A stretch of 29,122 bases of DNA, taken from positions 64,001 to 93,122 of the IMG/VR virus record IMGVR_UViG_3300035156_000175; one strand, 5' to 3'. The translations under genes were made by a program, and so were the position numbers. This document shows, one piece after another, positions 567 through 15,394 of the stretch; position 1 is the stretch's first letter, and every line of letters begins with the position of its first letter. This DNA comes from a virus. Below the pieces are notes generated by a model. That model was not told the origin of the DNA, made no database searches, and worked only from the letters and a program-made list of their open reading frames with translations.

Positions 567-772
567 CACATGTACCCCATTTTGCGCTCAAGGTCCTGGT
601 CGCGATCAGGCAAGCCGGTCCAGGCCTTGTAGGTCTTGTTCTGGCCCAGCGGCTCCCCTTTCCAAGGGCCGAAGACCGGCTTGTTGTCTTTCGTCAAGAG
701 GATCAGCATCATGTTCAGCGGAGGCTGCTTGACGTACTCAAAAACAAAATCTTTATTTACGTGACGACGCAT
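566..772 (-). CDS. Small hypothetical protein, 68 aa
   Basis: A short basic protein with one hydrophobic stretch (LNMMLILL) in its first third and no recognised domain. The ATG directly follows the methyltransferase TAA, and an AAAGGAA ribosome site lies just before it, so it is very likely translated. The second reading frame of the methyltransferase locus (757-1947) runs 16 bases into this gene. Function unknown. Confidence 0.6.
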   Translation of the reverse strand: MRRHVNKDFVFEYVKQPPLNMMLILLTKDNKPVFGPWKGEPLGQNKTYKAWTGLPDRDQDLERKMGYM

Positions 773-1947
773 TTAGTTCCTTTCGTTGATTGCTTTGATG
801 GACGACTCGATGAAGCCTTGCGCGACGCGCGCATTGATTGCATTGCCGTAACAGCGCAGAAGGACCACTCGATCGGAATACCCATCAGCCAGCGGGAATG
901 TTCCGGACTCAACTGGCCGCCACTTGAGGTCCCGGCAGAAAAGCCAATCAGCATCTCGCCAGAAACCGTTAGTCGGGCCGGGCTGTCCCGCTCGATATAG
1001 TGGATGGCCGAAGTCAGATCCACCGTCCGGCCTTGGTCCTTGCGCTTGAACGGATCCTGCCCCTTCCCGCGCAAGCTCTGCGGCGTCTGGCAAGTTGGCG
1101 TCGGCCAGCCGCCCAGAAAGAAGTTCTGATTCGCGTCCTGATAGCTGGTCCGCGCTGATCTGTTCCCCGCCGACATCGCCTGCACCACATCGCCCATCGT
1201 CTGCATACTTGCGGTTGGCGTCGGCCAGCCCGCCAGGGAGGTAATTGCTCCCAAGTCCTGGCCCTTCAATTTGTTGCGCGCGATGATCGCTTCCGGATCC
1301 GGATTCACACCCTTCACGCCCAGGCTGGCGGTTGGCGTCGGCCAGCCCGCCAGTACGGCCGCATGGTTGAGCGTCATGTTCGGCGTCGGCGCGAAGTTCA
1401 CCGCCGGATGGCGATTCGAGTCGCAGGCTGTGGCCGTCGGCCAGCCCGCCAAATACGCCTGGCGCGCCAGCTGATCCGTCCGGCCCGATGTCTCGCGGTC
1501 GGAACGGACCCGAGCGAGGCTCATGCCAGGAGTGTCTTTCCAGTCGCGCGCCGCGGGTGTGACCCACGAGGTACAGCCGTTGTCGGATGTGCGGCGCACC
1601 CCAGCCCGCAGAGCATGTATCTGTCGCCCCTGCGGCGTAACCTTCACCTTCCAGGTCAGTGAGTACAAGGTCGAGCCAAGCAAGGCCTGCTGGGCTTGCA
1701 GACTGCTCACCAAAGAAGACATCAGGGCGGCCGAAGCGGATGAGCCAATGGAGATAAGGCCACAGGTGCCGCTCGTCAGCAAACCCTCCTCCTGCGCCTG
1801 ACGAGCTGAAAGGCTGGCATGGGCAGGATCCAGTCCAGACCCGGGCGGAATCGGGTACGCCGGCGCGTCGCAGGGCGAGCGACCAAATGCCGACTCCCGC
1901 AAAGAAATGGCATTGAGTAAATCCAAGGAGATCTTGGGGTCGGACAT
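757..1947 (-). CDS. Overlapping-frame WPTPT-repeat protein inside dcm, 396 aa
   Basis: This open frame lies almost wholly within the methyltransferase gene, same strand, offset by one base. It has a strong translation signal: AAGGAG at 1956-1961, eight bases before the ATG at 1947. It encodes four GWPTPT/GWPTAT repeats where the methyltransferase frame encodes LADAN. It also contains segments such as GSTLYSLTWK, RRTSDNGCTSW and HSRWLMGIPIEW. From memory, these same segments occur in separately annotated phage and prophage proteins, often labelled methyltransferase or hypothetical. No catalytic motif is visible in it. It may be a true overlapping gene, or a frame kept open by constraint on the methyltransferase. 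Function unknown. Confidence 0.55.
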   Translation of the reverse strand: MSDPKISLDLLNAISLRESAFGRSPCDAPAYPIPPGSGLDPAHASLSARQAQEEGLLTSGTCGLISIGSSASAALMSSLVSSLQAQQALLGSTLYSLTWKVKVTPQGRQIHALRAGVRRTSDNGCTSWVTPAARDWKDTPGMSLARVRSDRETSGRTDQLARQAYLAGWPTATACDSNRHPAVNFAPTPNMTLNHAAVLAGWPTPTASLGVKGVNPDPEAIIARNKLKGQDLGAITSLAGWPTPTASMQTMGDVVQAMSAGNRSARTSYQDANQNFFLGGWPTPTCQTPQSLRGKGQDPFKRKDQGRTVDLTSAIHYIERDSPARLTVSGEMLIGFSAGTSSGGQLSPEHSRWLMGIPIEWSFCAVTAMQSMRASRKASSSRPSKQSTKGTKCVVT

Positions 1948-2062
1948 CGAGGATGCTCCTTTCGTCCACCACGCCTGGCGCGATGAGACCTTGTTTAATC
2001 AGCTCCCGGAGAATGGCTGCCGCCTCCGGGTCGTGCTCGTTGTAGTAGGCCAGCGGCTGCAT
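773..2062 (-). CDS. dcm: DNA cytosine-5 methyltransferase (phage Dcm type)
   Basis: Transfers a methyl group from S-adenosylmethionine to C5 of cytosine in DNA, most likely to protect phage DNA from host restriction. The ordered motifs are visible: motif I FFAGVG at residues 53-58, motif IV PCQPFS at 81-86 with catalytic Cys82, a motif VI-like FGEQ at 117-120 (GEQ rather than the usual ENV), and motif VIII RQRLYLVG at 160-167. A motif X-like YGNAINARVA lies near the C-terminus. The N-terminal AYYNEHDP segment is typical of phage members. The variable target-recognition region carries four LADAN repeats. The ATG overlaps the rdgC stop (TAATG). A second frame with its own Shine-Dalgarno lies inside it. 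Target sequence cannot be predicted. Confidence 0.9.
   Translation of the reverse strand: MQPLAYYNEHDPEAAAILRELIKQGLIAPGVVDERSILDVRPQDLLGFTQCHFFAGVGIWSLALRRAGVPDSARVWTGSCPCQPFSSSGAGGGFADERHLWPYLHWLIRFGRPDVFFGEQSASPAGLAWLDLVLTDLEGEGYAAGATDTCSAGWGAPHIRQRLYLVGHTRGARLERHSWHEPRSGPFRPRDIGPDGSAGAPGVFGGLADGHSLRLESPSGGELRADAEHDAQPCGRTGGLADANRQPGREGCESGSGSDHRAQQIEGPGLGSNYLPGGLADANRKYADDGRCGAGDVGGEQISADQLSGRESELLSGRLADANLPDAAELAREGAGSVQAQGPRPDGGSDFGHPLYRAGQPGPTNGFWRDADWLFCRDLKWRPVESGTFPLADGYSDRVVLLRCYGNAINARVAQGFIESSIKAINERN
1095..1450 (-). repeat. Four-copy repeat in the dcm variable region
   Basis: The core GTCGGCCAGCC (plus strand) recurs at about 1100, 1220, 1337 and 1436, at spacings of about 120, 117 and 99 bases, all multiples of three. 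Two copies are identical over 26 bases (1211-1236 and 1328-1353). Each copy encodes LADAN in the methyltransferase frame and GWPTPT or GWPTAT in the overlapping frame. Confidence 0.85.
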
Positions 2063-2910
2063 TACGCAGCCGCCTGCAGCGCCTTGAGCAGACCCTGCAT
2101 CTCGAGCGTCATCAGGGCGAAGTCGGACTGGAAGGCGTCGGCATTTTTGGCGCTGGAGAGGCTTTCCTTCAGCACGTCAAGCGCCTTGATGCGCCGCAGA
2201 TGGCCGCTGCTCGACAGCACAAACGACAGGCGGCCGGCATACGTCATGGCCATCGATTCGACGCTGGCGTTGGCCATCTGCACGTGGCGCTGGACGTCGT
2301 CTTCGCTCAGATTGGCCTTGGTGTACTTGACGAGCTTGCCGCTGGCGCCCGGATACTGCAGCGTCACTTCGTCGTCCAGCGTAAAGTCGGCCGGCTCTTC
2401 GATCAGCCAGCTGGTAACGACCTTGGCGCCGGGCAGGTCGAAGTCTCCCAGGCCTAGGTGCTCGAACTGCCGGACCAAGGTTTTCGTAATTTCGTCAATC
2501 ACCGGCTGCGACGTTGAGTCGATCACCACCATGCCGTTCTGCATATCCAACCAGACGCGAGTCTGGCGACGCGTGGCCAGAGCGCGCGGCAGCAGCTCGT
2601 CCACGACGCGCTCACGCAGCTCTTTCATCGCCTTCTTGCCCGGCGCAAAGCCCTGCGACTCCTCCAGAGCTGCCACCTTTTCGGCGAGCACCACCTCGAC
2701 GGCCGACTTGGGAATGTGTTTCTTTTCTTGCATGAAGTGCAGCAGTACCTGCATGCCGTGCTGATAGTGCGGCACGCCTTCAAAGACAGGCGCCCAGCCG
2801 GAGGAGGCCAAGTCTGCGGTACCGCAAGGGGAGAAGGTGTTGCTGGAGATGAGCGAGAGGTTGAGCTGCTTGGCGCGGATGCCAAACACGGTTGCATTTT
2901 TATGCCACAT
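2062..2910 (-). CDS. rdgC: RdgC, recombination-associated DNA-binding protein
   Basis: RdgC is a ring-shaped DNA-binding protein that limits RecA-driven strand exchange; phages and bacteria both carry it. The family N-terminus is recognisable (MWHKN, compare MWFKN), followed by FSPCG, SSGWAPVFEG and the LPRALATRRQTRVWLD region. At 282 residues it is close to the usual length of about 300. I chose the ATG at 2910 because the family starts at MW; the frame extends upstream to a TTG at 2973. That TTG doubles as a possible promoter -35 element. The ribosome site is weak (GAAAG about nine bases upstream). The stop overlaps the methyltransferase ATG, so the two are coupled. Confidence 0.88.
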   Translation of the reverse strand: MWHKNATVFGIRAKQLNLSLISSNTFSPCGTADLASSGWAPVFEGVPHYQHGMQVLLHFMQEKKHIPKSAVEVVLAEKVAALEESQGFAPGKKAMKELRERVVDELLPRALATRRQTRVWLDMQNGMVVIDSTSQPVIDEITKTLVRQFEHLGLGDFDLPGAKVVTSWLIEEPADFTLDDEVTLQYPGASGKLVKYTKANLSEDDVQRHVQMANASVESMAMTYAGRLSFVLSSSGHLRRIKALDVLKESLSSAKNADAFQSDFALMTLEMQGLLKALQAAA

Positions 2911-2944
2911 TTTGAGGAACTTTCGAGGTGAGATGGTGTCGCTT

Positions 2945-2973
2945 AGGGTAGTCAAACTTTTGAGATTTGTCAA
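2945..2973 (-). promoter_or_regulatory. Possible promoter for rdgC and dcm
   Basis: A perfect TTGACA (2973 to 2968) is followed by 17 bases and a weak TACCCT (3 of 6 match to TATAAT) at 2950 to 2945. It lies about 35 bases upstream of the preferred rdgC ATG, in the gap between divergent gene blocks. The -10 is poor, so this is a tentative call. Confidence 0.35.
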
Positions 2974-3046
2974 TTCATTCGAGGTCAGCTGTCTCCTTTT
3001 CGGCGTTACAGACTACATTTGTCCTTTCCATGGGTCAAGTTCTTCG

Positions 3047-3075
3047 TTGACTGAAGGCAAGAAGCATGCCAGAAT
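3047..3075 (+). promoter_or_regulatory. Promoter for the plus-strand virion operon
   Basis: TTGACT (5 of 6) at 3047-3052, an exact 17-base spacer, and CAGAAT (4 of 6) at 3070-3075 form a sigma-70-like promoter. It sits about 50 bases upstream of the first gene of the plus-strand block. A 6-bp inverted repeat, GAATCT/AGATTC at 3072-3087, spans the predicted start point and could be an operator, though such short repeats occur by chance. Confidence 0.5.
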
Positions 3076-3133
3076 CTTCCCAGATTCCGCGCAGCAATTC
3101 TGCGGCGCTTAACTCATCAGATAGAGGCATGAC

Positions 3134-3523
3134 ATGGCTTACAGCACCGAACTGCGCAACGCAAAACTTGACGCGAATACCACCATTGTTGGCAATGCCG
3201 GCAAGCTTGAGATCTACTCCGGCACCGACTCGGCCGGCACGAACAACGCCGAAGGCACGCTGCTCGCCAGCTTCACGCTGGGCTCGCCTTTCGCCCCTGC
3301 CGCTTCCGGTGGCGTGCAGTCGCCAACACTGCCAGCTGACACCACTGGCGTTGCCACTGGCACTGCCGGCTGGGCACGCGTGACCAAGGCTGACGGCTCG
3401 ACCGCGGTGATGGACTTGACCGTCGGCACGTCCGGCGCCCAGGTGAATCTGAACACGCTGTCGATCTCGACCGGCGTCGCCGTGAGCATCACCAGCTGGA
3501 CCATCACCGCCGCTGACGCGTAA
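3134..3523 (+). CDS. Small phage structural protein, 129 aa
   Basis: A Thr/Ala/Gly-rich, beta-strand-rich protein without signal peptide or membrane segment. It starts MAYSTELRNAKLDA and contains FAPAASGGV and ITSWTITAAD, a pattern I recall from small virion-associated proteins of siphophages. The role may be a minor tail, fibre-base or decoration protein. The start has AGAGG eight bases upstream. The next gene begins one base after its stop, indicating translational coupling with the esterase. This is the first gene of the plus-strand operon. Exact virion position cannot be told from sequence. Confidence 0.7.
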   Translation: MAYSTELRNAKLDANTTIVGNAGKLEIYSGTDSAGTNNAEGTLLASFTLGSPFAPAASGGVQSPTLPADTTGVATGTAGWARVTKADGSTAVMDLTVGTSGAQVNLNTLSISTGVAVSITSWTITAADA

Positions 3524-3524
3524 T

Positions 3525-4730
3525 ATGGCCTCGCCCGTCGGTATCGGCTACAGCGTTGATAGCGGCGGGAGTGTGAACGCCGGGCGGCGCTACGAGCCTA
3601 CGTTCAACTCCGTCGCCATGGTGTCGGAGGATGCTGGCATTCCTTACACGACTGCCAATCAGACGCTGCTGATCAGCATGCACGGCAGCAGCGGTGGCGG
3701 CAACTTGATGGGCTCGGGGCGGCAGTTCCGCGCCCAGTGCTCTGGCGCGCTGGCTTACGGCCCACACACGGAATTCATCTTCTCCACCGCGCGCATCACC
3801 ACCACCACGATGTCTATTCGCCCAGTCGATTACCAGCTGGTCAGCGGCGTGAACCGGGAAGCGATGTGGCTGGGCTTCAGTAACGTGCCGGCTGTGACCG
3901 GTATTCCTGGTGCCAAGGCGCGTTTCTTCAAATTGCGGCGCCTGGAGGCGATGTACCTGTGGGCAAGCTCGAGCACCAACGGCGTGCCGAACGTGCCCAA
4001 CGTGAACTGGAAAAAGACTTGCGTCACCGGCGGCTCGATGGGCGGCTGGGGCACGATGACCTTGGGCGTTCGCCGCCCAGAGTGGTTCGCCGCGCTTTAT
4101 CCGGACCGCCCGCGCTGGAAGCACGGCAGCGTAACCGGCAAGATCTGGGTCGCCCCCTACACCGGCAGCTTTATCAGCGTCGACCTGGCGGCCGCGCCGA
4201 CCTTGTCGAGTGACGATGGCGGCGGGCTGTCGTCGACCTTCATGAACCTGGTCGATTATGTGGCCAACACAGCCAACAAGATCCCTTGGATCGGCTGGAA
4301 CTGCGGACGCAACGATGGCTTTGCGCTGTGGCAGGATCAGTTGGACGGTGTAGCGGCAATGCGCGCGGCGAAGCGCGGCTTTGCCTTCGCCTGGAACAAT
4401 GGCGATCACACCGTCGGGTCGATCCCTTCGCAGATCACGGCCAGCTATCCACTCGGCACCTTCGAGATCGGCAAGGGTTACCCACTCTTCACGGAGCACT
4501 CGCTTGACAACGATCCAACAGTCGATCTGGTCGGCGGCATCAACCTGAATTTGAGTTTTCGTAACGTGGTCGAGACGGCAAGCAGCTGGTCCTGTGAGGT
4601 GACCAGTATCGCGGCAGCTTGCACGGTCAAGGTTGAGCCCATCAGCGACGTATTTAAGACGGCCGTGACGGCGAAGCTGGTGACGATCCCAGCCGCCAAC
4701 ACCTGGGTTGCCGTTTCATTCCCAGTATAA
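3525..4730 (+). CDS. Alpha/beta-hydrolase esterase in the virion operon, 401 aa
   Basis: Predicted serine hydrolase. The nucleophile elbow GGSMGG gives Ser171, GRNDG gives a candidate acid Asp264, and NNGDH gives a candidate base His295, in the correct order and spacing for the fold. SMHGSSGGG at 51-59 fits the oxyanion-hole loop. The arrangement resembles feruloyl-esterase or PHB-depolymerase-like enzymes. There is no signal peptide. About 90 residues after the His form a beta-rich tail that may attach it to the virion. Lying between structural genes, it probably acts outside the host cell, for example removing acyl groups from capsule, LPS or exopolysaccharide during adsorption. Substrate is unknown. 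No clear ribosome site precedes it, so it likely depends on coupling. Confidence 0.75.
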   Translation: MASPVGIGYSVDSGGSVNAGRRYEPTFNSVAMVSEDAGIPYTTANQTLLISMHGSSGGGNLMGSGRQFRAQCSGALAYGPHTEFIFSTARITTTTMSIRPVDYQLVSGVNREAMWLGFSNVPAVTGIPGAKARFFKLRRLEAMYLWASSSTNGVPNVPNVNWKKTCVTGGSMGGWGTMTLGVRRPEWFAALYPDRPRWKHGSVTGKIWVAPYTGSFISVDLAAAPTLSSDDGGGLSSTFMNLVDYVANTANKIPWIGWNCGRNDGFALWQDQLDGVAAMRAAKRGFAFAWNNGDHTVGSIPSQITASYPLGTFEIGKGYPLFTEHSLDNDPTVDLVGGINLNLSFRNVVETASSWSCEVTSIAAACTVKVEPISDVFKTAVTAKLVTIPAANTWVAVSFPV

Positions 4731-4739
4731 GAGGACAGC

Positions 4740-6089
4740 ATGGCCACATTAATTGAACGCACTATCGGTACGGGTGGGGATTACTCCACCATTGCGCTGT
4801 GGTATGCCTCTATTCCTGCCAACCTGGTGACACCCGACGAGATTCATCGTGGCTTGCTGCTGAACCAGGAACATACGGTCGCAGCTGCCCTGAACATCAC
4901 CGGCAAGACGACGAGTGCCAGCTGCTACATTGAGCTGACTACGGCGGCGGGTTGCAGCTTCCTGGACCACGCCAACAAGGCGACGAATCCGTTGCGCTAC
5001 AACTCCAGCGTCGGCGCCTGCATCACGGCGTCGGGTACAGCCATTACGATTCAGTCGCAGCAAGCGCATACGCGGTTCAGCAAGTTTATGATCCGCAACA
5101 CCAACACGACGGTCAATGCGCCGCCAGCACTGGTATGCAATGCCACGGTTGGCAATCCGCAATATATCGACAAGTGCATCATCGAGTCGAACGCCATTTC
5201 GACATCGCTGAAAGGCTCGCTCCGGGTGGCCAACGCCGGCAGCGTCGTGAGCAACTGCGTCGTTATCAACCACAAGGCTGACGCGGCGGCTGTTCTGGCG
5301 CTGTTCCAGTACAACGTGAACGTGCACAATTGCACGTTCCTGGCGCTGGGCGGCGTGACGCTGACCACCGGCATCCTGACGCAATATGTGGCAGCGGTAT
5401 TCAAAAATATCTATGTCGGCGGTGTGACCGCGGTCGAAGACGGCACCGTTGTTGCGACAAAGACGAACTGCTATTCCAGCGCCACCGCGACCAACTACAC
5501 GACGGTGCCAATGTCGACAGCGACGTTCGAGAACGTCACTTCCGGCACGCACGACGCACGCTTGAAGTCGACCTCGGCGCTGATCAACGCCGGCGTGACC
5601 GACGCAACATACGCTTCGACCGACATCCTGGGCACGGCCCGTCCGGCCGGCGGGTCTTATGACGTCGGCGCGCACGAGTACAACGCGGTGGTACCACCAG
5701 TCGGCACGCTTGGCTGGACCGAAGGCAGCTCGCAGGTGTCTGTTACCGGCAACATCACAATCACCTCAATCACAGGCAGCGCCGGCTGGACCGAAGGCAC
5801 CTCGCCGGTAGCAGTGAACGGTAACGTCACGATCCCGCTGCCCACCTTGACGGTGTTGGGCGTCTCCCTGAACAACGGGTACCGCCGCGTGGGCGAGTCT
5901 TTTACTGCGATCATCTCGCAAGTGGCGACCGGCGCCTTGGTGGTGCGTCTCACTGGCAAGGTGGTCAACGGCGCCGGTAACCTGATTCTGCAGAGCGACC
6001 AGATGACGCCAGGCACCGAGTACCGCCTGGTGCTGGAAGACAGCAACGGTAATGGTGGTGTAGGTCGTTTGACGGCGGTGAACCTATGA
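4740..6089 (+). CDS. Beta-helix tail/fibre-like protein with two WTEG repeats, 449 aa
   Basis: The central part (about residues 90-310) has short repeating beta turns with stacked Asn/Cys/Val positions. It ends in SALINAG, DILGTARP and YDVGAHEY, a signature commonly found at the end of right-handed parallel beta-helix (pectate-lyase-like) domains. Two W-T-E-G repeats follow, with Trp326 and Trp350, then a roughly 85-residue Ig-like C-terminal domain. The next protein contains ten more of the same repeats. An AGAGGA ribosome site lies just before the ATG, and the stop overlaps the next start (ATGA). Likely a receptor-binding or surface-degrading virion component; enzymatic activity is not evident. 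Confidence 0.7.
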   Translation: MATLIERTIGTGGDYSTIALWYASIPANLVTPDEIHRGLLLNQEHTVAAALNITGKTTSASCYIELTTAAGCSFLDHANKATNPLRYNSSVGACITASGTAITIQSQQAHTRFSKFMIRNTNTTVNAPPALVCNATVGNPQYIDKCIIESNAISTSLKGSLRVANAGSVVSNCVVINHKADAAAVLALFQYNVNVHNCTFLALGGVTLTTGILTQYVAAVFKNIYVGGVTAVEDGTVVATKTNCYSSATATNYTTVPMSTATFENVTSGTHDARLKSTSALINAGVTDATYASTDILGTARPAGGSYDVGAHEYNAVVPPVGTLGWTEGSSQVSVTGNITITSITGSAGWTEGTSPVAVNGNVTIPLPTLTVLGVSLNNGYRRVGESFTAIISQVATGALVVRLTGKVVNGAGNLILQSDQMTPGTEYRLVLEDSNGNGGVGRLTAVNL

Positions 6090-12817: not shown

Positions 12818-15394
12818 TTACTCTGCTACCACGACGTCAATCCAGATCGGCATGCCGCCTGGCGGCGCCGCGAAGATCCCGTAGCGTGCTCCGGGAATCA
12901 GGAACTGACTGGTGAGCGTGACAGTGCCGCCAGTGCGAGGCGGAACCGGCGGAACCGGCGGCGGCGTGACGACCGGCGGCGGATCTACAACCACCGGAGG
13001 AGGTGGTGGCGGAGGCTCGACCGGAGGCGGCTCCACAACCACTGGCGGAGGCGGCGGAGGCGGTGGCTCTACCGGTGGAGGAGGCGGAGGCGGCTCGACC
13101 GGCGGAGGCGGAGGCGGAGGCTCGACCGGAGGCGGCGGTGGAGGTGGAGGTGGCTCCACGACAACCGGAGGCGGCTCGACCGGAGGCGGCGGTGGCGGAG
13201 GCTCGACCGGTGGTGGAGGCTCGACCAGCATTTCCGGACGCGGCGCCAGGGCGAACTGTGGACCATTGCCGTAAAACTGCTTCTTGTTCCGGCTCTGATA
13301 TACCTTCCAGGAATCCAGCGCGCCAGGGTAGCCGATAGAGACGGCCGCGGCCAGCGCACCCTGCATCTGCGCAGCATAGCCGGTCGTTTCCGTCGGGTAG
13401 TTATACATCTCGCTCAAGCCGAGCAAAGCATACGACTGCCGACCGATATTGATACGAGCCAAGCGTTCAGGGCTGTTGCAGGGCAGGTCGAAAGTCTCCT
13501 GTCCGACCGTCTTGCGCAGGCATTCAGCATAGTCGGCGTACAGTGGCGAGGTCGCACTGTCGCGCACGCGCAGAACCGAGACACAGGCGTCAATCCAGCA
13601 GGCGCCTGGCCCAGCCATGCGCAGCATGACGAAGCGAGATAGCCACTCGAGGAAGCGGCGCGCGCCAGGGTGCCCAGTGAGCTCATAGCCATGCCACCAC
13701 GCAACCGCCGTGAAGTCATTTTGCCAAGGTGCCATGCCTACCGTTGCGTCGGTGCCAGCAGGGAAGCCGGGAAGGCTCGGCATCGCGTAGTTGCACGCAT
13801 AGCCATCGCTCAGGTAGCCCAAGTCGTTGACCTTGTCGAGGCGGGTCTGCTTGTCCGGCGCCGGCAGCGGCAGACCTTCATAGGTGATCGTCTTGTCGAC
13901 GTAGCGCGCCAGATAATACTGAACGTTCTGGTCGAACTGGTAGCTCAGCGCCGCCTTGAGGTGGTGGTTGTCCGGGGTGAGGGCTGCGGTCTGCGCCAAG
14001 CTGCGGAAGGCCCAAGCCTGGCCGCGAACCTGATTGCGGTGTACCAGCGCCTTGTGCATGCCGCGGTAAGCCGGGTTGTTGCTGAACGAGTTGTAGTTAT
14101 TCCAGAAGTGCATCTCGTCCAGATAATACTGGTCGGCGGAGAGCAGCCACGGCAGGTAAGCAAATGCTGCTTGGTGCGCGACGTCCGGCTGGCCGATGTT
14201 GGCGCTCTTGTACGTGCTAGGCCGCTCCGAGATTTTCTCCAGCATACCGGTGAGCGGGTTCTTCACACTGGTGTTGCCGATCATCGTGAGCGCGGGCCAG
14301 TGGAAGACGTCGATCGGATGACCGCCAGCGGGGCCGTTGCTCGGATCGCGGAAGTGGATCGGCCAGGAGCCAGAGCTGTCGGCCGACTTCATCATCACGC
14401 GGTGTGGGCGCTTGTCCATCGTCACCAGCGCGGTGGCATACGAGTCCGGCATGACAGCGATCTCGCTGCGGCCGCCAGCTGTCGGCATGGACGGGTTGAA
14501 ACGCCCAAAGCCGCCCGGGCCAAAGTTCTTGGTGGTCAGGTCCTTGGCAAGGCTTGCCAGATACGCCTCATTGATCGTGACGCTCTGGTCGGCCGACTGT
14601 ACCTGCAGCGTGCTGATCAGGTACGGAATGTTGTGCTTGATGTGCACCTGCGGTGTCGTGCCGGTCCAGAACAGTTCATGGTGGCGCTCGCCGCGCGCCC
14701 AGATTTGCGCTGGCCAGTTCAACAGCACCTGGTCAAGCAGGTCACGGACTTCCATGTCAAACGCCACATCGAGGTAATCTGCGAACGGATCGCAATGCTC
14801 CAGCACGACGTCAGAGCGGATCTGCCCGTTGCTGTAGCGGCGCAAGGAGAGCTGCGCTTTGAGCTTGGGGTGAGCTACCCCTTCAGCGGTCCGGAGCGTC
14901 TGCAGGTCGCGCCACTCCGTCATGATTTGGCCGTGATGGCTGAGTCGGGGTGTCGGTGTCGCTTCAGGGTAGTACCAGGTGCCACCAAGGTTCACCCGGA
15001 TCTTCACAGGCGCCTCAATACGCTGTGCCGGCTCCAGATCGCGCTGCTTGCGAATTGCCCGCACCAGCTGCATTGACGTGTCGCCGGCGGCCAGTGTCGG
15101 CAAGGTGCCGGAGATCGCGCTGTGGCGCACAGAGCCGTCCCGGTGCGTCGACAGGTGCTCGACCTGCAGCGGGATCTCCAGCATGCCGATACGGCCGACC
15201 AGGTCGCAGTTCGGAGTCATCTGGCCTTCCACGAAGGGCTGGCCGAAGGTGAAGTTCACGTTGGTCTGTGTCTCAGGAATCAGACCTTCAAACACTACGT
15301 CGGTGACGACAGTGCCTGGGGCCCGAGGGATGGAGGTGCAGGGCCGAGGCACGAATGCGTCGAGCTGTATTGCGGGTGATCCGGGAGGTAACAT
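12818..15394 (-). CDS. Large virion or polysaccharide-active protein with polyproline linker, 858 aa
   Basis: Residues about 1-710 form a large region with aromatic-rich helical segments (LPWLLSADQYYLDEMHFWNN, AVAWWHGYELTGH) resembling alpha-toroid sugar-active proteins. It is preceded by a beta-rich part (NFTFGQPFVEGQ, RHSAISGTLP) similar to tail-associated proteins I recall from Burkholderia-type phages. Residues about 722-819 are nearly all Pro with Glu and Val (VEPPPPPPP units), a stiff spacer. The final 38 residues make a small beta domain (SQFLIPGARYGIF, MPIWIDVVV). There is no signal peptide. Likely an adsorption or surface-degrading protein; catalytic residues were not identified. It is monocistronic, with a candidate promoter upstream and a terminator after the stop. 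Confidence 0.6.
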   Translation of the reverse strand: MLPPGSPAIQLDAFVPRPCTSIPRAPGTVVTDVVFEGLIPETQTNVNFTFGQPFVEGQMTPNCDLVGRIGMLEIPLQVEHLSTHRDGSVRHSAISGTLPTLAAGDTSMQLVRAIRKQRDLEPAQRIEAPVKIRVNLGGTWYYPEATPTPRLSHHGQIMTEWRDLQTLRTAEGVAHPKLKAQLSLRRYSNGQIRSDVVLEHCDPFADYLDVAFDMEVRDLLDQVLLNWPAQIWARGERHHELFWTGTTPQVHIKHNIPYLISTLQVQSADQSVTINEAYLASLAKDLTTKNFGPGGFGRFNPSMPTAGGRSEIAVMPDSYATALVTMDKRPHRVMMKSADSSGSWPIHFRDPSNGPAGGHPIDVFHWPALTMIGNTSVKNPLTGMLEKISERPSTYKSANIGQPDVAHQAAFAYLPWLLSADQYYLDEMHFWNNYNSFSNNPAYRGMHKALVHRNQVRGQAWAFRSLAQTAALTPDNHHLKAALSYQFDQNVQYYLARYVDKTITYEGLPLPAPDKQTRLDKVNDLGYLSDGYACNYAMPSLPGFPAGTDATVGMAPWQNDFTAVAWWHGYELTGHPGARRFLEWLSRFVMLRMAGPGACWIDACVSVLRVRDSATSPLYADYAECLRKTVGQETFDLPCNSPERLARINIGRQSYALLGLSEMYNYPTETTGYAAQMQGALAAAVSIGYPGALDSWKVYQSRNKKQFYGNGPQFALAPRPEMLVEPPPPVEPPPPPPPVEPPPVVVEPPPPPPPPPVEPPPPPPPVEPPPPPPPVEPPPPPPPPVVVEPPPVEPPPPPPPVVVDPPPVVTPPPVPPVPPRTGGTVTLTSQFLIPGARYGIFAAPPGGMPIWIDVVVAE
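12937..13228 (-). repeat. Polyproline coding repeat (VEPPPPPPP units)
   Basis: About 290 bases of low-complexity CCN codons with Glu-Val interruptions, giving runs of up to nine prolines. The plus strand is correspondingly a run of GGN units. Polyproline of this length normally needs EF-P for efficient translation. Confidence 0.85.

Follow-up and report, generated by a model that had tools for sequence, protein, structure and literature searches.

A gene overlapping phage dcm in the +1 frame probably encodes the target-recognition and motif IX subunit of a two-chain C5 cytosine methyltransferase

The orphan C5 cytosine methyltransferases (C5-MTases) of the Bacillus phages SPbeta and phi3T reportedly have several interchangeable modules for target recognition, placed between motifs VIII and IX, in work attributed to Trautner and co-workers (1996) and to Gunthert and co-workers (1986). 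The small subunit of M.EcoHK31I is said, after Lee and co-workers in 1995, to be encoded inside the large one in another frame. M.EcoHK31I (YGGCCR) is a two-polypeptide C5-MTase in which the alpha chain holds motifs I-VIII and X and the beta chain motif IX, with the TRD assigned to the large subunit (PMC3404938). In the split C5-MTase M.AquI (CYCGRG), one chain bears the catalytic motifs and the second bears motif IX together with the distal variable region; motif X is on the small subunit and the variable region is shared (PMC3404938).

Here we describe a locus in a 29,122-nucleotide stretch of viral DNA (the window; positions 64,001 to 93,122 of IMG/VR record IMGVR_UViG_3300035156_000175). 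The initial annotation had described a 396-codon frame on the same strand inside dcm, preceded by AAGGAG, eight bases and ATG, and the positions in the sequence match that description exactly (Table 1). This frame (frame B) is shifted by +1 relative to dcm (frame A), starts 115 nt downstream of the A start and ends 16 nt beyond the A stop. The stop of the RdgC-like neighbour gene shares 1 nt with the dcm start. We propose that the locus probably encodes a two-subunit orphan C5-MTase, in which A would be catalytic and B, translated from its own internal ribosome-binding site, would contribute target-recognition modules and motif IX. Within B, a helix (residues 70-90) and a beta hairpin (95-117) are predicted in the N-domain core; the structure model of B alone has a pLDDT of 55 and is confident only at this core and at motif IX. 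Elsewhere in the window, the long ORFs at 3525-6089 (plus strand) and 12818-15394 (minus strand) gave no PHROGs match at E<=0.01; the former has a GGSMGGWG motif like that of alpha/beta-hydrolases.

Table 1. Features of the overlapping locus and its upstream neighbour, in window coordinates
Feature	Position	Strand	Remark
RdgC-like recombination-associated exonuclease (upstream neighbour)	2062-2973	minus	phrog_724, E=1e-53
Frame A (dcm), 429 aa	773-2062	minus	annotated frame
Frame B, overlapping +1 gene, 396 codons	757-1947	minus	proposed specificity/motif IX subunit
Shine-Dalgarno AAGGAG of frame B	1956-1961	minus	followed by 8 nt, then ATG at 1947-1945
Frame A motif I-like	1883-1912	minus	
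Frame A motif IV (PCQPFS)	1796-1831	minus	
Frame A motif VI (GEQ)	1694-1720	minus	
Frame B N-domain core TLYSLTWKVKVTPQGRQIHALRAGVRRTS	1585-1671	minus	conserved in alignment; opposite A motif VIII
Frame A motif VIII (RQR)	1562-1600	minus	
Cassette region of frame B, five WxTPxxxD-type modules (W128, W169, W202, W241, W281)	1081-1566	minus	
Frame B motif IX QLSPEHSRWLMGIPIEW	865-915	minus	profile alignment to single-chain MTase
Frame A motif X (YGNAI)	809-850	minus	

The motifs of a C5-MTase are divided between the two frames. Across 270 loci, frame A has motif IV in 256, motif VIII in 263 and motif X in 255, as well as motif VI, and has motif IX in none; frame B has motif IX in 223, motif X in two and motif IV in none. 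The sets are complementary, and A and B would therefore be parts of one enzyme. Frame A matches PF00145 (E=2.7e-10), phrog_363 (E=6e-70) and a HhaI profile (E=5e-16); as a PF00145 protein it has motifs IV (PCQ), VI, VIII and X along with the profile match, and lacks motif IX and a TRD on the same chain. Frame B matches phrog_1008 (E=9e-34) and phrog_31772 (E=1.4e-32) over most of the protein; it has no match in Pfam or NCBIfam, nor in a profile search against PDB sequences. The earlier suggestion for its product was a partner, inhibitor or specificity factor of the methyltransferase. Of these, partner or specificity subunit is the best fit, since the C5-MTase motif IX absent from A is found on B; the inhibitor falls under the modulator reading discussed below.

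Relatives of the locus carry the same parts in other arrangements. In L351-type actinophages, A ends past motif VIII (~175 aa) and B, which overlaps A by ~60 codons in the +1 frame, holds cassettes, motif IX and motif X. L330 and Mycobacterium phage Rita have these parts on a single chain, read in one frame. The L330 protein matches phrog_363 over residues 2-372 and phrog_1008 over 185-378 (E=4e-58), and its AF2 model aligns with M.HhaI (model 1-381, HhaI 12-326; Z 22, 235 residues, rmsd 3.8). An hhalign comparison of the B family with the single-chain family (96%, E=2.4e-9) extends through motif IX. The catalytic halves of L346 and L331 are 95% identical and are accompanied by the same kind of cassettes, motif IX and motif X, in the +1 frame in L346 and in frame in L331. 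At the level of sequence, the B family corresponds to the C-terminal half of single-chain C5-MTases in other phages. The phrog_1008/phrog_31772 family also takes in proteins from the +1 frame of actinophage L351 (1.2e-85) and of a Paenibacillus phage (1.6e-74); Paenibacillus phages have the nested form too, so the overlap spans several bacterial phyla. In six single-chain actinophages (L330, L331, L333, L335, L340 and L343) the B N-domain and one or two cassettes can still be read in the +1 frame, which stops at a TAG near the frame 0 start of the next cassette; this may represent either a site of frameshifting or a frozen switch of frame.

These arrangements bear on two other readings of B. 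Programmed ribosomal frameshifting could join motifs I-VIII of A to the cassettes and motif IX of B, with no separate B start. The order of parts in the single-chain enzymes, where cassettes and motif IX come after motif VIII, would suit such a product, as would the actinophages in which the cassette array is divided between +1 and frame 0. We nevertheless consider frameshifting improbable, since B has a selected internal start with a Shine-Dalgarno sequence, since a shift past motif VIII would bypass the constrained B N-domain opposite A motifs IV-VIII, and since motif X, which a single shift would drop, stays in A. The evidence for the start comes from codon choice at homologous sites, which shows selection for GAT over GAC, preserving the ATG, and for AGG in the Shine-Dalgarno: at the B start, A uses GAT for Asp in 187 of 233 cases (background 77 of 271), and within the Shine-Dalgarno it uses AGG for Arg in 70 of 248 (background 16 of 294). 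Equally unlikely is that B is a separate modulator (an inhibitor, anti-restriction decoy or regulator) rather than a structural part of the enzyme. Overlapping genes do often code for accessory proteins, as a matter of general knowledge, but motif IX is missing from A throughout the 270 loci and supplied by B in most, the B of the split actinophages also holds motif X, part of the enzyme core, and fused single-chain versions exist.

The 5' part of B varies in some loci. In L329 (EBPR siphovirus 2 gp44, 1995-4490), an apparent intein interrupts the catalytic PCQ motif of frame A (CFPAGALVL...VHNCQPF); frame B has many stops within the insert and resumes directly past it, which suggests that the first ~40 residues of B are dispensable. 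In L323 (phage N15 gene 58, 2359-3354), frame B runs without a stop from a point upstream of the LTWK region, but its N-terminal part has stops, so the B start would be later there.

Taken by itself, the window sequence makes an open frame B only moderately surprising: given protein A, the chance is 0.0076 when the gene's own codons are shuffled and 0.0005 with the codon usage of the window, and comparison with relatives was therefore needed. Within the overlap, A has a third-position GC of 0.58; the other long ORFs of the window have 0.70-0.80. The tblastn searches recovered 199 phage records with B and 321 with A. Viral and bacterial contigs were scanned using A, B or an alignment of B as the query, giving 321 loci including the window; all 321 have both frames, with B at +1 in every one. 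No stand-alone WPTPT gene occurs in the 321 loci, where all overlap A; fused single-chain forms are seen instead. Expected stops were obtained for 125 non-redundant loci by shuffling A codons among synonyms. Counting stops in homologues had been set beforehand as one test of the second frame, and frame B came through it with 10 stops observed against 399 expected, with the +2 control frame near expectation (1471 observed, 1373 expected). Frame B is stop-free in 121 of the 125 loci, where 5.8 would be expected, in keeping with the earlier argument that such recurrence would be unexpected for a chance frame; in loci of 49% GC it is open in four of four against 0.03 expected. Searches started from B favour loci that have B, and the loci found from A give the same answer. 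The four loci with stops (L052, L063, L067 and L081, with seven in L063) could be lineages losing B or could reflect sequencing errors.

For selection in each frame, every possible change was scored for whether it is synonymous in each of the two frames, differences were counted between related pairs, and loci were bootstrapped. The resulting dN/dS values are simple counts, uncorrected for multiple hits, with few SS sites and with bootstrap intervals that treat loci as independent, and on this scale the first 25 codons of A, ahead of the B start, gave 0.13 in A and 1.02 in B, as expected of an internal control. Both frames are constrained from residue 75 to motif VIII (A 0.14, B 0.27) and in the C-terminal part (A 0.18, B 0.19). 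In the cassette region, A is at 0.90 [0.71-1.26] and B at 0.22 [0.17-0.29]. Over most of its length B lies at 0.19-0.30, and loci found by the A query alone gave similar values. In the L351-type overlap both frames are constrained (0.05 in A, 0.15 in B), and past the A end the A frame is neutral (1.06), a second control. Sites synonymous in A are suppressed about fourfold within the overlap; the stretch of A running up to its motif X, opposite motif IX of B (865-915), has the lowest A fourfold-site divergence, 0.06.

Over ~180 codons, it is the dcm frame and not the second frame that is the passenger. Read in frame A, the cassette-region DNA gives GGLAD/GLADAN repeats, and from the contrast of 0.90 in A with 0.22 in B these repeats are a by-product of the WPTPT modules of B. 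A TRD in frame A was rejected, the GLADAN repeats being neutral in A. With motif IX in 0/270 loci and neutral evolution at the TRD position, A alone is an incomplete C5-MTase. The substitution pattern places B under protein-level selection, with the cassettes coded by B only; conservation explained wholly by dcm had been named as an objection, and the check gave B at 0.2-0.3 where A is also constrained, in addition to the B-only cassettes. That B is a chance open frame, kept open and similar by a conserved dcm protein and GC-rich codon usage, draws on the moderate P of the window alone and on the scarcity of stops in GC-rich genomes, but we discount it almost entirely, together with conservation through dcm alone, on the stop counts set against a control frame at expectation, the same outcome at 49% GC, the suppression of A-synonymous sites, the constraint on B where A is neutral, and the in-frame recurrence of B-family sequence as the C-terminal half of other MTases. 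Frame B is real and very probably has a protein product.

The cassettes of B number one to six per locus, are about 25-45 residues long and each begin with WxTP. Families of four or more members were defined by strict clustering, as single-linkage over-merged them. Of the 42 families, 41 are represented at more than one ordinal position, and the order of 31 cassette pairs is inverted between loci; cassettes of one family share an identity of 0.76 when read in frame B and of 0.47 in frame A. Several exchangeable modules thus lie between motifs VIII and IX, as in multispecific phage C5-MTases. From their position, modularity and shuffling, the cassettes probably set which sites become methylated. 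The annotated frame would give the catalytic part, and the second frame most likely the part that reads the DNA sequence. We lean towards a widespread class of phage enzymes whose specificity would reside in shuffling, B-only WPTPTxxD cassettes of about 35 residues, with several targets per enzyme that change by cassette exchange.

In the two-subunit enzyme that we propose, both subunits would be translated from one message with two overlapping frames. Frame A would provide the catalytic subunit, with motifs I-VIII, a long unconstrained stretch and motif X. Frame B, starting from its own Shine-Dalgarno inside A, would provide motif IX, an N-domain (LTWK...RRTS) and a series of exchangeable WPTPT cassettes for target recognition. 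The two subunits would come together, presumably as a heterodimer, in a single enzyme similar to a split M.HhaI. The cassettes would direct the choice of methylated sites, and methylation may shield the phage DNA from host restriction, an anti-restriction role.

Existing annotations record the two frames unevenly. The WPTPT, LTWK, RRTS and HSRWLMG blocks had been noted as parts of independently annotated proteins in other phages, and they do have PHROGs families of their own, occur in the 199 phage records and are annotated in GenBank, where at least three records list the second frame as a separate gene. In K1ind1 it is called 'Mte8-like', PhiXhv-28 has two annotated methyltransferases, and Honeybear carries the remark 'Not called by any programs'; the annotations of N15 and epsilon15 leave the second frame out. 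In Komagataeibacter phage phiKX1 (L325, ~1300-2520), just a portion of frame B carries a gene annotation and frame A is unannotated; the C-terminus of this frame A seemingly lacks motif X. PHROGs labels phrog_363 (A) and phrog_1008 and phrog_31772 (B) all as DNA methyltransferase, with no hint that the A and B families share one DNA in different frames or form one enzyme. PADLOC recognises only the catalytic part of frame A. No close copy of the N15 dcm gene was found in the E. coli genome set, and our literature search found no paper on dual coding of phage methyltransferases.

Many 'dcm' annotations in phages and prophages thus probably record half an enzyme, and the annotated dcm protein contains ~180 residues on which selection does not act. 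If such a gene were recoded for expression, the second subunit would be lost unnoticed. As a same-strand overlapping gene pair in bacterial viruses, A and B are unusually long and broadly conserved, and the natural split, nested and fused forms make the origin of the overprinting testable. If the cassettes are recognition modules, they would give phages a quick change of methylation targets against host restriction.

Among described enzymes, M.EcoHK31I offers the precedent for carrying motif IX on a separate chain, a likeness set by its published description (PMC3404938). Like M.EcoHK31I, the locus has motifs I-VIII and X on the large chain (A) and motif IX only on the small chain (B). Unlike M.EcoHK31I, where the TRD is on the large chain, the matching stretch of A is neutral and B is constrained, with its one to six shuffled cassettes; M.EcoHK31I is also a bacterial restriction-modification enzyme, whereas the A/B loci encode phage orphan enzymes. 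Because of the difference in the TRD, we file the locus as a variant that would work like M.EcoHK31I, not as a member. It resembles M.AquI in having motif IX and the distal variable region on a chain other than that of the catalytic motifs, but the window locus keeps motif X on A and is nested, and B has motif X in only 2 of 270 nested loci; the L351-type actinophages, which alone have the distal TRD and motifs IX and X together on the small chain, are closer to M.AquI, yet overlap by ~60 codons in +1. The proposed class with shuffling cassettes may be likened to a separate specificity subunit, of which it would be the C5 counterpart, written inside the catalytic gene. Like the multispecific C5-MTases of SPbeta and phi3T, these are phage orphan enzymes with several exchangeable modules between motifs VIII and IX; unlike those single-chain enzymes, they have the modules and motif IX on a second polypeptide, in the +1 frame, with a WPTPxxD signature. 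What is new here is the phage-wide occurrence across phyla, the shuffled WPTPT cassettes in B and the neutral evolution of the presumed TRD region of A.
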